Assembly: GCF_007990755.1 (NCBI RefSeq)
Contig: NZ_BJXA01000010.1
Location: forward strand, 1-64,000
Direction of reading: 5' to 3'
DNA: 64,000 nt
Source of the DNA: Nocardia ninae NBRC 108245
GTDB lineage: Bacteria > Actinomycetota > Actinomycetes > Mycobacteriales > Mycobacteriaceae
Shown: positions 48,393 to 53,521 of the stretch, piece by piece
Layout: each line of letters starts with the position of its first letter
How positions within the stretch are numbered: position 1 is the stretch's first letter
The notes under the pieces: generated by a model
What the model was told of the DNA's origin: nothing
The model's input: only the letters and a program-made list of their open reading frames with translations
Databases searched by the model: none
Translations under genes and position numbers: made by a program

Positions 48393-49079
48393 ATGTCCGA
48401 AGACAAGCTGTCGCGTGCCGAGGTGGCTGTGCTGTCGTTTCTGCTCGGCAGCCCTGCTGCCCAGCGGCAGGTCGGCATCGCGGAAGCTACCGGAGTGACG
48501 CAGGCGCGAGTGTCGCAAATCCTGGCTGCCGCTGATGCGTTCGGCTGGACCGAACGCGGCCCGGACGGCTGGCAGGTGCGCCGCCCCCGCGAGCTGTTCG
48601 AGCGTCTTGTCGCCGCCCGTCCGCCCAAGGTCGACGTCGTCGAGTCCTGGTACAGCCTCGACACCATGCAGCGGCAGATCGAGCTGGCGTTGGAACAAGC
48701 CTCGGATCAACAGGTTTCGCTGCAGGTTTGCGGCGATTGGGCAGCGGATCGGGTCGCGCCGTGGCGAATCCCGGACATCGTCTATCTGCACGCCGACGGG
48801 CATTTGGACCTGCAAGCAGCAGGTTTCGTCCCGGTCGAAACGAGTCCTGCCGACGCGACCATCGTGGTGAACGTCGGCAAGCTCGCGCCCGGATTGCGAC
48901 TCGACCCGGCGATCGCCACGGCGATGGGCGGCCCGCCTGCGCAAGCGTGGCCGCTCGCACCCATCACCGAGATTGCCCGGCACTTGCTTACCGGCAACGG
49001 GCCCGATACTGCCGAAGCCGTAGCCGAACTCGAACAACGCTTTCTCGCCGCCCGCAGCGAGCTCGAGCGCGTTGCATGA
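48393..49079 (+). CDS. AbiEi-like winged-helix antitoxin (type IV toxin-antitoxin)
   Basis: 228 residues from ATG 48393. Residues about 5-70 form a winged helix (AEVAVLSFLLGSPAAQRQVG, ATGVTQARVSQILAAADAFG, then the wing RGPDGWQVRRP). The rest (ESWYSLDTMQRQIELALEQA, WRIPDIVYLHADG, ATIVVNVGKLAPGLRLDPAI) looks like the C-terminal part of AbiEi-type antitoxins. Its stop overlaps the ATG of the nucleotidyltransferase gene. AbiE-type antitoxins neutralise the NTase toxin without direct binding and repress their own operon. Assignment rests on gene pairing and general resemblance. Confidence 0.7.
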   Translation: MSEDKLSRAEVAVLSFLLGSPAAQRQVGIAEATGVTQARVSQILAAADAFGWTERGPDGWQVRRPRELFERLVAARPPKVDVVESWYSLDTMQRQIELALEQASDQQVSLQVCGDWAADRVAPWRIPDIVYLHADGHLDLQAAGFVPVETSPADATIVVNVGKLAPGLRLDPAIATAMGGPPAQAWPLAPITEIARHLLTGNGPDTAEAVAELEQRFLAARSELERVA

Positions 49080-49807
49080 TCGAGCTGGCGGTCTTCAGCG
49101 GTTCGCGGGCCGAGGACGGTGCGTATCTGGCGCTGGCCGACGCCGCGGCCGCCGGTGCCGCGCTGGAGTCGTGGGCGGTGATCGGCGGGCACATGGTCAA
49201 TCTCCATGTGCTGCGCAGCGGGGTATCGGTCCCGTTGCGCGCGACCAGAGATGCTGATCTCGCGGTAGAACTAGTAACCATCCGGGACGGAGTCCTGCTG
49301 GATCGATTGCGCGGCATGGGCTATGACAATCCACGGGCGGGCAACCGATTCGAGCGCTCGGTCGGTGGAGCTGCCGCGACGATCGACTTGCTGGCACCGT
49401 CGTTCACCAACCGGCATGTCCCCGATCTCGATGCGGGACCGATCGCGGTCGACGGCATCCCGGCGCTGCATGTGGCGTTGGCGCGGGAGCCGGTGTGGAT
49501 TGCTTTGAGCGCCGAGCTGATCGATGGCACCCGGACATCCGCCATCGTCGCGATCCCGGACATCGCAACGGCCCTCTGCATCAAAGTCTTCGCTTACCTG
49601 CACCGCTTCACTCCGCGTGACGCCGAAGACATCGCACGACTGCTCGAATGCGGATACGCGGACCGGACATCCTGGCCCACCGGAACCACTTTCACCGAGG
49701 CGCTCGATCTGCTGCGCGAGCATTTCGACCAGCCGGGACACGCGCTGCGGAGGTGCACCGGAAATCCCGCGCGCACCCGTGCCCTCGTTCGTGCTCTCAC
49801 GCCTTGA
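49076..49807 (+). CDS. AbiEii-like nucleotidyltransferase toxin
   Basis: 243 residues from ATG 49076, overlapping the partner stop. The nucleotidyltransferase fold is shown by VIGGHMVNLHVLRSGVSVPL followed by RATRDADLAVEL, which supplies the GG and the Asp-x-Asp catalytic pair, then IAVDGIPALHVALAREPVW and a helical tail with FTPRDAEDIARLLECGYAD. AbiEii toxins transfer nucleotides to tRNA or other acceptors and arrest growth during phage attack. Motifs are intact, so the module may be active. Confidence 0.75.
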   Translation: MIELAVFSGSRAEDGAYLALADAAAAGAALESWAVIGGHMVNLHVLRSGVSVPLRATRDADLAVELVTIRDGVLLDRLRGMGYDNPRAGNRFERSVGGAAATIDLLAPSFTNRHVPDLDAGPIAVDGIPALHVALAREPVWIALSAELIDGTRTSAIVAIPDIATALCIKVFAYLHRFTPRDAEDIARLLECGYADRTSWPTGTTFTEALDLLREHFDQPGHALRRCTGNPARTRALVRALTP

Positions 49808-50333: not shown

Positions 50334-51443
50334 ATGACCGTCTCCCTGCCCCTCGTTTTCGATGCTCCGCGCCGTGGCATGCCGCCCCGGCACCTCGCCG
50401 ACCTCGACGCAGAGGGCAGGCGGGCAGCTATCGAGGAGCTGGGACTGCCGAAGTTCCGCGCCGACCAGATCGCCCGCCAGTACTACGGCAGGCTGCAGGC
50501 CGACCCGGCGCAGATGACGGATCTGCCCGCGCCCGTGCGCGAGAAAATCGGCGAGGCGCTGTTCCCGCCGCTGATGTCGGTGGTGAAGCACGTCGCCTGC
50601 GATGCGGGCGAAACCCGAAAGACGTTGTGGCGCGCGGGCGATGGCACCCTCTTGGAGAGCGTGCTCATGCGCTACCCCGACCGCGCCACCCTCTGCATCT
50701 CCAGCCAAGCAGGCTGCGGCATGGCTTGCCCGTTCTGCGCGACCGGCCAAGGCGGACTGAACCGCAACCTGTCCACCGCCGAGATCGTCGACCAGGTGCG
50801 CGCCGCGGCAGCCGCGATGCGCGACGGTGAGGTCGCGGGCGGGCCGGGCCGGCTGTCCAACATCGTCTTCATGGGCATGGGCGAACCGCTGGCCAACTAC
50901 AAGCGGGTCGTCGCCGCGGTCCGCCGCATCACCTCCCCGCCGCCGGACGGTTTCGGTATCTCTCAGCGCAACGTGGTCGTCTCCACCGTCGGACTGGCCC
51001 CCGCGATCCGCAAACTGGCCGACGAAGACCTCTCGGTCACCCTCGCCGTCTCCCTGCACACCCCCGACGACGAACTGCGCGACACCCTCGTCCCGGTGAA
51101 CAACCGCTGGGCGGTCGCCGAGGTCCTCGACGCGGCCCGCTATTACGCCGACAAGTCCGGTCGCCGTGTCTCCATCGAGTATGCGCTGATCCGCGACATC
51201 AACGACCAGCCGTGGCGGGCGGACATGCTGGGGCAGAAGTTGCACAAGGCTTTGGGTTCTCGCGTGCACGTCAACGTGATTCCGTTGAACCCGACGCCGG
51301 GTAGCAAGTGGGATGCCTCGCCGAAACCTGTTGAGGCCGAGTTCGTTCGGCGTGTGAACGCCCAGGGTGTACCGTGCACGGTCCGTGACACCCGCGGCCA
51401 GGAAATCGCTGCTGCCTGCGGACAACTCGCTGCCGAAGGCTAA
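50334..51443 (+). CDS. rlmN: 23S rRNA (adenine-C2)-methyltransferase RlmN
   Basis: 369 residues from ATG 50334 (TGGAGGAACT upstream). Radical-SAM enzyme that methylates A2503 of 23S rRNA and A37 of some tRNAs. The cluster cysteines are Cys128, Cys132 and Cys135 (CGMACPFC); [17 protein letters not shown] and the C-terminal catalytic Cys in [20 protein letters not shown] are present. Intact. A broken copy of its 3' half lies 1.7 kb downstream. Confidence 0.96.
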
Positions 51444-51694
51444 CGAATACCGAGGCGTCCGGCTTGTATGCAGTGGCGCTGTGGCCCTTGAGGGGTGGGA
51501 AGCTGTTATCGCAGGAGGAAGGTCCGCAACCGGGTCGATTCCTTGAACTCATTGAGCGTGAGTGTGTTTCGCGCGGATCAACGCCAGACAGCCCTTGTCC
51601 CCCGGTGACACACGCAGCCAGGAGACTGTTGCCTGCAGACAGTCGGGCCGCAGTAGGCGTGACGGGTGTTGTGGCACAACGGTCCGTCGGCTAG

Positions 51695-52213
51695 TTACGG
51701 TGCCTGCTCGCCTACGATCTCAATCGGTTCCATGTCGCTTCCGATCCATTGCCACTTAGGTCTGTGCCCGAGGATCAGCAGTACCGCGTCACCGTACCGA
51801 AATGGGTCCGATAGCAGGGTTTCTAACCTCCGCAAATCTTCCTCGACCGCTGTGGCAGCCTTCTTTATTTCCACTGCGAGCAGATTCGAGTCATTGGTAC
51901 CCCGGACATGGATGATTAGGTCCGGTCTCTCTCCGAACGGGCCGTTTTTGACAATCGCTTTCGGTCGTTTTCCTTGGCGGTTGTACTCGGCATCCACACG
52001 CAGCTTGCTACCCGGGCGCTCGATCGCATTGGCGAGGCTCTGACCGAGCCGGAATGCGATTGCTTGCTCATGTACCGCAGAAAGGACAAGCTCGCGCTCG
52101 GCTCGATACAGTGTCAGGATCGCACTATGGAGCAAGTCGCGGAGCTGCTGTTGGGTCGGGTAGCCATCACCGATAGGGTTCTTTTCATGAGAGTCGCCAG
52201 TTGATCGAGGCAC
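51695..52213 (-). CDS. PD-(D/E)XK nuclease-like protein, family not recognised
   Basis: 172 residues from GTG 52213; ATG 52267, which would overlap the preceding gene, is an alternative. A nuclease core is suggested by Glu49 in VHEQAIAFRLGQSLANAI, Asp98 in ERPDLIIHVRG and Glu115-x-Lys117 in LLAVEIKKAATAVEED, in the usual order and spacing. The ending (FRYGDAVLLILGHRPKWQWI) is compatible with a strand-helix finish of that fold. No known restriction or defence family is recognised. It is the last gene of a three-gene minus-strand run behind a damaged NTase toxin-like gene, and its codon use is less GC-biased than that of core genes. Confidence 0.6.
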   Translation of the reverse strand: MPRSTGDSHEKNPIGDGYPTQQQLRDLLHSAILTLYRAERELVLSAVHEQAIAFRLGQSLANAIERPGSKLRVDAEYNRQGKRPKAIVKNGPFGERPDLIIHVRGTNDSNLLAVEIKKAATAVEEDLRRLETLLSDPFRYGDAVLLILGHRPKWQWIGSDMEPIEIVGEQAP

Positions 52214-52227
52214 CTCAATGGATGGGC

Positions 52228-52659
52228 TCACCGGGTTTGAAATTCGCGTCGCCAGTCTGTGACCCATCCACGCATGGCCGCGATGAGATCTGATGTCCTG
52301 TACTCAGCGAATGCTTCGTCGGTGATTTGCATCAACGTGCCGAGGGCGTGAGCGAACATGCGCGGCTCGGAGCCATCGTCAGCACTTTTGGTGAGAGAGC
52401 TCAGTCGGTCGCGGCTGTAGCGGCCGCTGGTGAGCGCGGTGCCGACACTCAGGAAGTCCCTGGGAAGTGCTCGCCTGTAGAGTGCGCACATCTTGTTGGC
52501 TACGGCATCGTCGGGGTGGAGGACCGTTCCGATGTCGAGCAGGACAGGAGGGTGTGCTCGCCAGTCGGCGCGGATGGCGTAGCCGCCAGCGAGGGCGAAT
52601 CCTTGGTCGCCGGCCACCGCGAGCGCGATTTCTGCCAGCTTGCGATGGCGTGGCTCCAC
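52228..52659 (-). pseudogene. AbiEii-type nucleotidyltransferase with internal deletion of the catalytic core
   Basis: An intact frame of 143 residues, but the protein jumps from the first NTase motif (FALAGGYAIR, residues 21-30) straight into DWRAHPPVLLDIG and then DDAVANKMCALYRRALPRDF, which in related toxins lies after the Asp-x-Asp loop. About 70 residues holding the catalytic aspartates appear to be missing, with the join near position 52570. The C-terminal part (MFAHALGTLMQITDEAFAEY) is normal for the family. It therefore cannot be an active enzyme. I recall the full family as about 220 residues. Confidence 0.7.
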
Positions 52660-52666
52660 TGGATGC

Positions 52667-53008
52667 CTACGCCGAGGCCAGTCGGCTGAGTTGCGCGAGC
52701 TCAGGGAACCGGCTTTCCCAAGCGCGTTTGATCTGCTGAGGGAGCCAGATGTAGGACCAGAGCCGTTTGAGAACTGCCTCGTTGAGGTAGTGGTACAGGT
52801 CGGTCGGGCTGGCTGCTTCGTTGATCACCGTGCGGTAGAGGTCGACGATTCTTCCTGGCCGGTCGAGGTCGTACTCGGCACGGCCGGACCAATCGAGATG
52901 CGTTGGAAGGTTGACGACGCCGCTGGTCGGGCCCGTGAGCAGGTGCAGGTCCTCGGGCACGGCGACAGGCTTGTGGTATCTCGGCCCGCCCTGTGTCAGT
53001 TCCGGCAT
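52667..53008 (-). CDS. Conserved partner of AbiEii-type NTases
   Basis: 113 residues from ATG 53008, with a strong GGAGGGAGAGAAG ribosome site (an upstream ATG at 53029 is less likely). The sequence LDWSGRAEYDLDRPGRIVDL then YRTVINEAASPTDLYHYLNE and LWSYIWLPQQIKRAWESRFP resembles the small protein that I recall preceding NTase toxins in many actinobacteria. It stops 8 bases before the damaged NTase gene, so this is the remnant of a two-gene module in which only the partner remains intact. Confidence 0.65.
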   Translation of the reverse strand: MPELTQGGPRYHKPVAVPEDLHLLTGPTSGVVNLPTHLDWSGRAEYDLDRPGRIVDLYRTVINEAASPTDLYHYLNEAVLKRLWSYIWLPQQIKRAWESRFPELAQLSRLASA

Positions 53009-53124
53009 CTTCTCTCCCTCCTCTGGCATATTGCTTGTCTGGTCAGCTTACCGTCGGTGTCCGACTGGCAGCGCGCGACAAAGCGCATTTATTTCCGCAG
53101 GTCAACCGGTTTGTAGGACGGTGG

Positions 53125-53307
53125 TTATGGGCTACCGCTGGCCAACTACTAGCGGGTCGTCTCCACCGTCGGCGTGAAACCTGTTGAGGCAGAGTTGGTT
53201 CGGCGGGTCACCACACCCAGATGTGCCGCGACACGGTGCGCGGTTACCTGAGGCGGGAGATCGCCGCTGCGTGTGGACAGTTGTCAGCGGAGGACCTGGT
53301 TTCGTAG
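53125..53307 (+). pseudogene. rlmN: Decayed rlmN 3' fragment
   Basis: Three pieces of rlmN occur joined together. ATGGGC plus CCGCTGGCCAACTAC and AGCGGGTCGT (53126-53160) match the [12 protein letters not shown] part. CTCCACCGTCGG (53160-53171) matches the later VSTVG part. ACCTGTTGAGGC followed by GAGTT, GTTCGGCG and a gradually diverging tail (from 53178) match the last 100 bases of the gene. The frame is broken by in-frame stops. Order and strand are the same as in the intact rlmN. The remainder of 53009-53521 holds no other feature I can support. Confidence 0.8.
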
Positions 53308-53521
53308 TTGCACCTGTCACTCGAGGGCGCGACTCTGGAGTTGGATCTCGGAACCCAATGTGTCAGCGGCTCAATAGTTTCGGCGAAGAAGGTGATTCCA
53401 TCCGGCAATGCAACCGGTGGAGCGCAAAACTGGAACCTGTTGCGGTTTGTGCTGCATGATCGTCTCCAGCGAGGTTGATCCCTGGCTGTGCCGATTGAGA
53501 CGAGCGAACAGAGGCCCGCAG

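Follow-up and report, generated by a model that had tools for sequence, protein, structure and literature searches.

Probable remains of successive site-specific insertions into the rlmN gene of Nocardia ninae, and related arrays in other genomes of the genus

Introduction

Large serine recombinases insert the SCC elements of Staphylococcus at an rRNA methyltransferase gene, rlmH, where cassettes may stand in tandem, and in these respects they resemble the arrays behind rlmN described here. Unlike the rlmN arrays, SCC elements use a site at the 3' end of their target gene and carry ccr genes.

A second close parallel is found in Dehalococcoides, where ssrA-specific islands follow a single gene in tandem, have repeats of the 3' end of that gene as their borders and are associated with the serine recombinase DsiB (PMC3146451). 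A conserved 15-bp motif stands just before each repeat, and 15 of the islands are without an integration module. The rlmN arrays share the tandem arrangement, the 3'-end remnants, a serine recombinase, a motif before the repeat and the integrase-less members. They differ in their target, in Dehalococcoides a tmRNA gene, with a repeat of 20 bp, and here the middle of a protein gene, from which about 570 bp (190 codons) are displaced, and in their cargo, which features rdhA genes in Dehalococcoides (PMC3146451) and defence or toxin-antitoxin-like genes, among others, at rlmN. Like the rlmN arrays, cis-mobilizable elements (CIMEs) formed by accretion (PMC5704250) are decayed, lack integration and transfer genes and are stacked at one att site. 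CIMEs by definition keep both attL and attR, however, whereas the rlmN arrays retain an attR arm only, with no left P' arm seen and the gene intact on the left.

In the portion of the open-access literature covered, one precedent for rlmN as an integration target was found, AICE03 of Streptomyces RLB3-6 (PMC9513070). As in the ICEs of genomes G149 and G108 described below, a conjugative element is there integrated at rlmN, but it is an AICE with 11-nt repeats; a further paper, PMC11983580, concerns an RlmN-like resistance enzyme. Accretion at one gene is known, and a mid-gene site with exchange of a half-gene of about 570 bp looks new.

Results and Discussion

The island behind rlmN

The window is the whole 64,000-nt stretch of Nocardia ninae NBRC 108245 that was analysed. 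Its features around rlmN are given below, with rlmN nucleotides (nt) counted from the gene start at 50334.

50334..51443, + strand: intact rlmN, 369 aa, radical-SAM 23S rRNA methyltransferase (Pfam Radical_SAM 2.8e-16, RlmN_N 3e-6)
50873..50887, + strand: predicted attachment core inside rlmN, nt 540-554, GMGEP codons (overlap of the split halves at both ICEs; starts of displaced copies)
51444..53342, no strand: whole stretch absent from the closest genome, G127, an rlmN-derived match aside (genome comparison)
~51546..51660, + strand: second displaced rlmN 3'-end remnant (local score 29)
51695..52267, - strand: cargo ORF, PD-(D/E)XK-nuclease-like, 190 aa (PADLOC PD-Lambda-3_A, E 3e-8)
52228..52659, - strand: cargo ORF, AbiEii-like nucleotidyltransferase (NTase) with internal loss, 143 aa (alignment with homologues in G103 and G137)
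52667..53029, - strand: cargo ORF, NTase partner, 120 aa (two homologues directly ahead of junctions in G103, likewise in G137; a further homologue in G008)
53096..53122, + strand: putative P-type arm of an attR-like junction, GGTCAACCGGTTTGTAGGACGGT (arm plus core 26.9 bits)
53123..53307, + strand: displaced, decayed rlmN 3' half, starting at the core (blastn alignment to rlmN)

A sequence-only reading of this DNA had placed a small island between intact rlmN and a broken rlmN fragment on the same strand, and had named several pieces of the gene within that fragment. Searching the island and the window with blastn against the window's own rlmN bore this out with significant alignments, in which 53176-53279 corresponds to nt 990-1091 (76%, E 1e-11), 53127-53173 to nt 544-591 (85%, E 2e-8) and 53155-53172, at 18 of 18 positions, to the VSTVG codons at nt 642-659 (E 0.005). 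The three pieces have the same strand and order as in rlmN, and the far fragment starts at nt ~540-544, within the GMGEPLANY codons. It has been broken by deletions, and its 76% identity to the present gene fits the old event that had been proposed. Against the whole of its own genome (E <= 0.001), rlmN matched the intact gene, the two larger of these pieces and a 65-bp stretch of a different contig (E 7.5e-4).

A second rlmN tail at ~51546-51660, initially detected at E 1e-3, matches the last ~115 nt of the gene. Its best local score, 29 against G013, was reached by none of 200 random window pieces (maximum 25) and by none of 200 block shuffles (maximum 21). This tail and the arm at 53096-53122 go beyond the sequence-only reading, as do the mid-gene entry point, the incoming DNA that apparently supplied a 3' half, and the probable number of two insertions, which follows from the presence of two displaced tails. 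We consider it likely that the segment is what erosion has left of site-specific insertions into rlmN, probably two in succession, the far fragment being a putative attR-type junction followed by a displaced rlmN 3' half.

The gene content had also been read correctly, with a PD-(D/E)XK-like ORF, an NTase gene damaged by an internal gap relative to its homologue, the partner gene and no core genes; integrase and transfer genes are likewise missing among the island ORFs. The nuclease-like ORF has, by eye, the motif RPDLII..EIK, but matched no Pfam family; it gave one weak match to plasmids, and no homologue was found in the other arrays examined. The NTase ORF had only weak matches and its Pfam AbiEii match (E 0.03) was under the cut-off, while the partner matched no family in the Pfam and PADLOC scans. 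The nuclease and NTase cargo may be anti-phage or toxin-antitoxin genes. Upstream of rlmN, at 48393-49807, an HTH/MarR-like ORF is followed by an NTase-like ORF (by eye); this pair probably lies outside the island because a similar HTH ORF is found upstream of rlmN in G129.

Homology to G127 ends at 51441, at the rlmN stop, and restarts at 53343, and about 330 unrelated bases stand in the island's place between rlmN and a P450 gene. The block is not ancestral sequence fixed in all relatives, which the sequence-only reading had considered as a counter-case. G000 and G127 have the same rlmN 3' half (95%), and because it is common to both, the insertion probably predates their split and was then lost in G127.

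Displaced 3' halves and the attachment arm

All 150 same-genus genomes, one for each species and the window's own included, have a match to rlmN. A first pass in which few candidates were scored per genome gave at least 50 with two or more matches to the 3' half, and a detailed re-search of those 50 (8 + 42) found extra rlmN 3' pieces in 21; the remainder, with only 24-69 bp matches elsewhere, were dropped. The extra pieces lie downstream of rlmN on the same strand, with two exceptions: G149 has an inverted copy at a distance of 3.1 Mb, and in G077 a 168-bp piece is on a different contig. Together with a junction arm in G069 and G138 and an rlmN tail in G034, at least 24 of the 150 genomes carry such traces.

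Starts were mapped in 27 regions, which were queried with rlmN from the window or from the genome concerned. Displaced 3' halves that reach the core number 29, in 15 of the 150 genomes, and every one starts at nt 534-547. The remaining pieces, shorter and decayed, begin further in. Some pieces form stacks, as in G137, with 11 separate rlmN pieces of which six have an arm, and in G103, with seven displaced pieces besides the intact gene. Tandem duplication of rlmN followed by decay, its cargo arriving later by unrelated events, would also give a same-strand fragment that matches rlmN. Such an origin is nonetheless highly improbable, as the displaced copies start constantly at the core, the arm described below recurs and the island is missing in G127. 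Moreover, in the regions examined no displaced copy covers nt 1-533, apart from the intact or split genes and the full RlmN genes carried by ICEs (other matches within nt 1-533 are ~27-39 bp), and gene duplication was rejected on this ground. The sequence-only reading had offered insertion or duplication, and it is insertion that stands.

In the window, a GTTTGTAAAACGG-like arm at 53096-53122 stands immediately 5' of the displaced half, and a consensus of about GGTCAGCGnGTTTGTAAAACGG precedes most displaced copies despite their differing cargo. When each copy's own genome was left out of the matrix, the arm scored above 10 bits in 21 of the 29 copies and below it in eight, some of them shifted by small indels (for example G104, and G103 17665); little arm is present at four copies (G129 11364, G077 17894, G087 3977 and G073 4884). 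A pattern search allowing two mismatches found 27 matches in 17 of the 150 genomes. Of these, 24 lie either on the rlmN strand downstream of that gene or, in G149, at a displaced half, and three lie elsewhere; the reversed-pattern control found none. The window arm, with more than two mismatches, falls below the pattern threshold and was detected by a matrix of arm and core built from 22 sites in other genomes, the window site excluded. Beside its score for arm plus core, the next best in the 64 kb is -0.5 bits and the best of 20 shuffled windows 10.4; for the arm alone the values are 26.3 bits, 12.8 for the next best and 18.4 for the best of ten shuffles. Across 530,607 bp downstream of rlmN in 104 genomes the matrix gave 25 forward matches, 18 of which are sites used to build it, and no reverse match. 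In a wider family draw of 401 genomes, which included only part of the genus and lacked most of the arm-positive genomes of the 150-genome search, the pattern (up to one mismatch) occurred in one genome, of the same genus as the window.

On the right of the arrays stands an attR-type junction, on the left an intact, attB-like rlmN. The P' arm expected of attL was exact only at the two ICEs; other matches to it carry three mismatches, and a few turned up with the reversed control too. In G149, a host-type displaced 3' half (C1 6804515-6805084, L038) lies on the opposite strand 3.1 Mb from rlmN, a sign that a large inversion may have had one of its breakpoints in the array.

Integrase-bearing elements at the same core

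G149 and G108 have a split rlmN, the 5' half of which runs to nt 554 and is directly followed by a large serine integrase. The elements are ~58 and 70 kb long, respectively, and the right end of both consists of a full RlmN gene, the arm and the rlmN 3' half from nt 540. The ICE-borne full-length RlmN (72% identity), ~140 bp before the right junction, apparently replaces the broken gene (L034-L037 in G149, L039-L042 in G108). A scan for transfer genes covered the G149 element only, and among its ten scanned proteins were relaxase, TraG/TraD-type coupling protein, NlpC/P60 and ParB domains; the element is called an ICE because of its relaxase and coupling-protein genes. By eye, the left arm of the ICEs looks like an inverted repeat of the right arm, and the centre of these arms would put the crossover at about nt 549-553.

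The near-identical integrase occurs in two of the 150 genomes, the next best relatives being 30-35% identical, and the window genome has no relative of it at E <= 1e-40. Scans for PF07508 and PF00589 in 11 genomes, both ICE genomes included, found in the arrays only the ICE integrases among the matches listed. Outside the genus, Amycolatopsis sp. CA-126428 encodes a 62% relative (L081) right after an rlmN 5' half that breaks off at the codon where the ICEs split the gene. It has further rlmN 3' remnants (L143-L146), one of them behind a similar TTGTAAA-containing stretch, and this draft genome gave no match to a full-length RlmN. Within 5 kb to either side of a 42% relative in Kitasatospora, no rlmN match was found. 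By sequence, an integrase-bearing element occupies the same core in two genomes of the genus and one Amycolatopsis, and the ICE-type integrase probably acts there, which points to a serine integrase with its attB in a conserved gene.

A phage origin was considered and rejected. Relatives of the integrase in phages are distant throughout (686 records, all below 60%, with 35% the best of 20 listed), the viral contigs contained neither an exact arm-pattern match nor an integrase relative, and the G149 element encodes a relaxase and a coupling protein.

The arrays might instead be collapsed ICEs, in which the full rlmN of an inserted ICE underwent homologous recombination with the host 5' half and so deleted the integrase and transfer genes. 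Intact rlmN, right-end cargo, the arm and the displaced 3' half would be left, and the 'cassettes' would be scars rather than mobile units. One such step accounts for the missing integrase and the missing left arm alike, and in both ICEs the full RlmN gene is suitably placed just before the right junction. However, the known ICE RlmN is only 72% identical, and in both ICEs the ~140 bp between that gene and the junction leave no room for cargo. Taking these points together with the breakpoints and the tree described below, we regard collapse as somewhat unlikely.

Chimeric rlmN genes

As a group, genomes with displaced pieces have an rlmN whose 5' half is host-like and whose 3' half is not the same in kind. 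G129 is one case, in which identity to the G127 gene is 93% over the 5' half and 77% over the 3' half, with a breakpoint at 555 (530-561). GC3 of the 3' half is 0.750 in the 21 genomes with pieces and 0.871 in 82 others (p 1.8e-10), with no difference between the two groups for the 5' half (p 0.43). Divergence in many foreign 3' halves is greatest over the first 90 nt past the core, nt 555-645, where GC3 is 0.746 in genomes with pieces and 0.891 in the others. This may reflect an attachment arm that overlaps the code; no P' consensus was seen in these 90 nt.

Breakpoints were tested in 79 genomes with a 5' reference of at least 90%, and the 20 top rows (LLR >11) represent 15 pairs. Seven of the 15 strong intervals overlap nt 540-575 (G143/G029, G129, G044, G136, G116, G093 and G113/G086, the last of these wide), and eight lie off the core, at 201 (G120), 459-465 (G104/G004 465), 592-607, 792 and 834-837 (G101/G022 834). 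Collapse of ICEs predicts breakpoints anywhere in the 5' half, and those at 201 and 459-465 are so placed, but the seven at the core speak against it. So does a tree of 3' halves, in which the intact halves of piece-bearing genomes do not stand beside the ICE RlmN, about two thirds of them falling among the displaced ones. The displaced halves of G129, G104, G057 and G108, and the distant one of G149, are placed beside host relatives. Eleven of 16 displaced halves are without such host-type placement (G137, G103, G109, G126, G077 and the near one of G149); inner copies of a stack would be expected to lack it, although this is unproven. In G149, the 3' half beside the ICE is 75% identical to the 5' reference and the distant half 92%, and the ICE seems to have entered an rlmN that was already chimeric.

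The eight breakpoints away from the core would also suit a spread of rlmN-flanked DNA from strain to strain mainly through homologous recombination, with site-specific events confined to the distant past, and so would mosaic 3' halves where no cassette is seen. The rlmN genes of G143 (L050) and G029 (L014) are an example, with 5' halves 98% and 3' halves 81% identical; G143 has no extra rlmN piece within the 16 kb examined, and half-gene exchange may outlive the cassettes. We hold this route to be unlikely, since stacks like those of G137 and G103 require the core to have been entered repeatedly.

The window's own intact 3' half groups with those of G127 and G143, has a GC3 of 0.83 and is not clearly foreign. 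The window's rlmN was presumably once made chimeric by an insertion of this kind.

A proposed mechanism

Successive site-specific insertion, our preferred reading of the window, could proceed as follows. A serine-integrase system would recombine at a core of ~15 bp in the GMGEP codons, and the incoming DNA would bring its own in-frame rlmN 3' half, so that the gene is kept intact as a chimera. The previous 3' half would come to lie at the distal end of the insert, with one attachment-site arm ahead of it, and would decay there for want of a start. Such a scheme offers an explanation for mosaic RlmN genes. The integrase-less stretches would be moved in trans by an integrase-bearing element that targets rlmN.

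As the arrays are attB-like on the left and show no P' arm, attB would have to pair with a hybrid P-B' site in a non-canonical reaction. Either this hybrid site can function as attP, or the cassettes are what collapsed ICEs left behind. Under the first option, rlmN could be the sole entry point for cassettes that lack an integrase, in many cases carry defence genes and form an integron-like array. The mobile circle would then consist of arm, half-gene and cargo, the chimera would be regenerated through an arm that itself encodes RlmN (P-B'), and the recombinase would be supplied in trans by ICEs that target rlmN. We advance this fuller scheme tentatively, as a possible rather than a probable account. 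Whether a serine integrase can act on a hybrid site, one half from attP and the other from coding sequence, is a testable question.

Cargo of the arrays

The array cargo comprises defence genes and others. Mechanical ORF calling gave 219 array ORFs, which were clustered, and 15 were chosen for scanning. Eight of ten scanned with PADLOC had matches, which include Wadjet JetC, JetD and JetA, a PD-T4-6-like kinase with an AAA part, PDC-S27 (DUF234 ATPase), PDC-M02B, a HerA-like ATPase and a PrimPol-helicase; a 418-aa ORF had none. Pfam matches include DUF4365 and a PIN protein with an HTH partner, the NTase homologue matched neither PADLOC nor Pfam, and neither G126 ORF matched Pfam. NTase and partner genes like those of the window, with their order conserved, directly precede junctions at two places in G103 and also in G137. 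The arm, the GMGEP core and a headless rlmN half together provide a signature for finding defence and toxin-antitoxin cassettes in the genus, and probably in Amycolatopsis. The long segments of G137 and G103 also hold other genes, for example those for Mce-like proteins and P450s (by eye).
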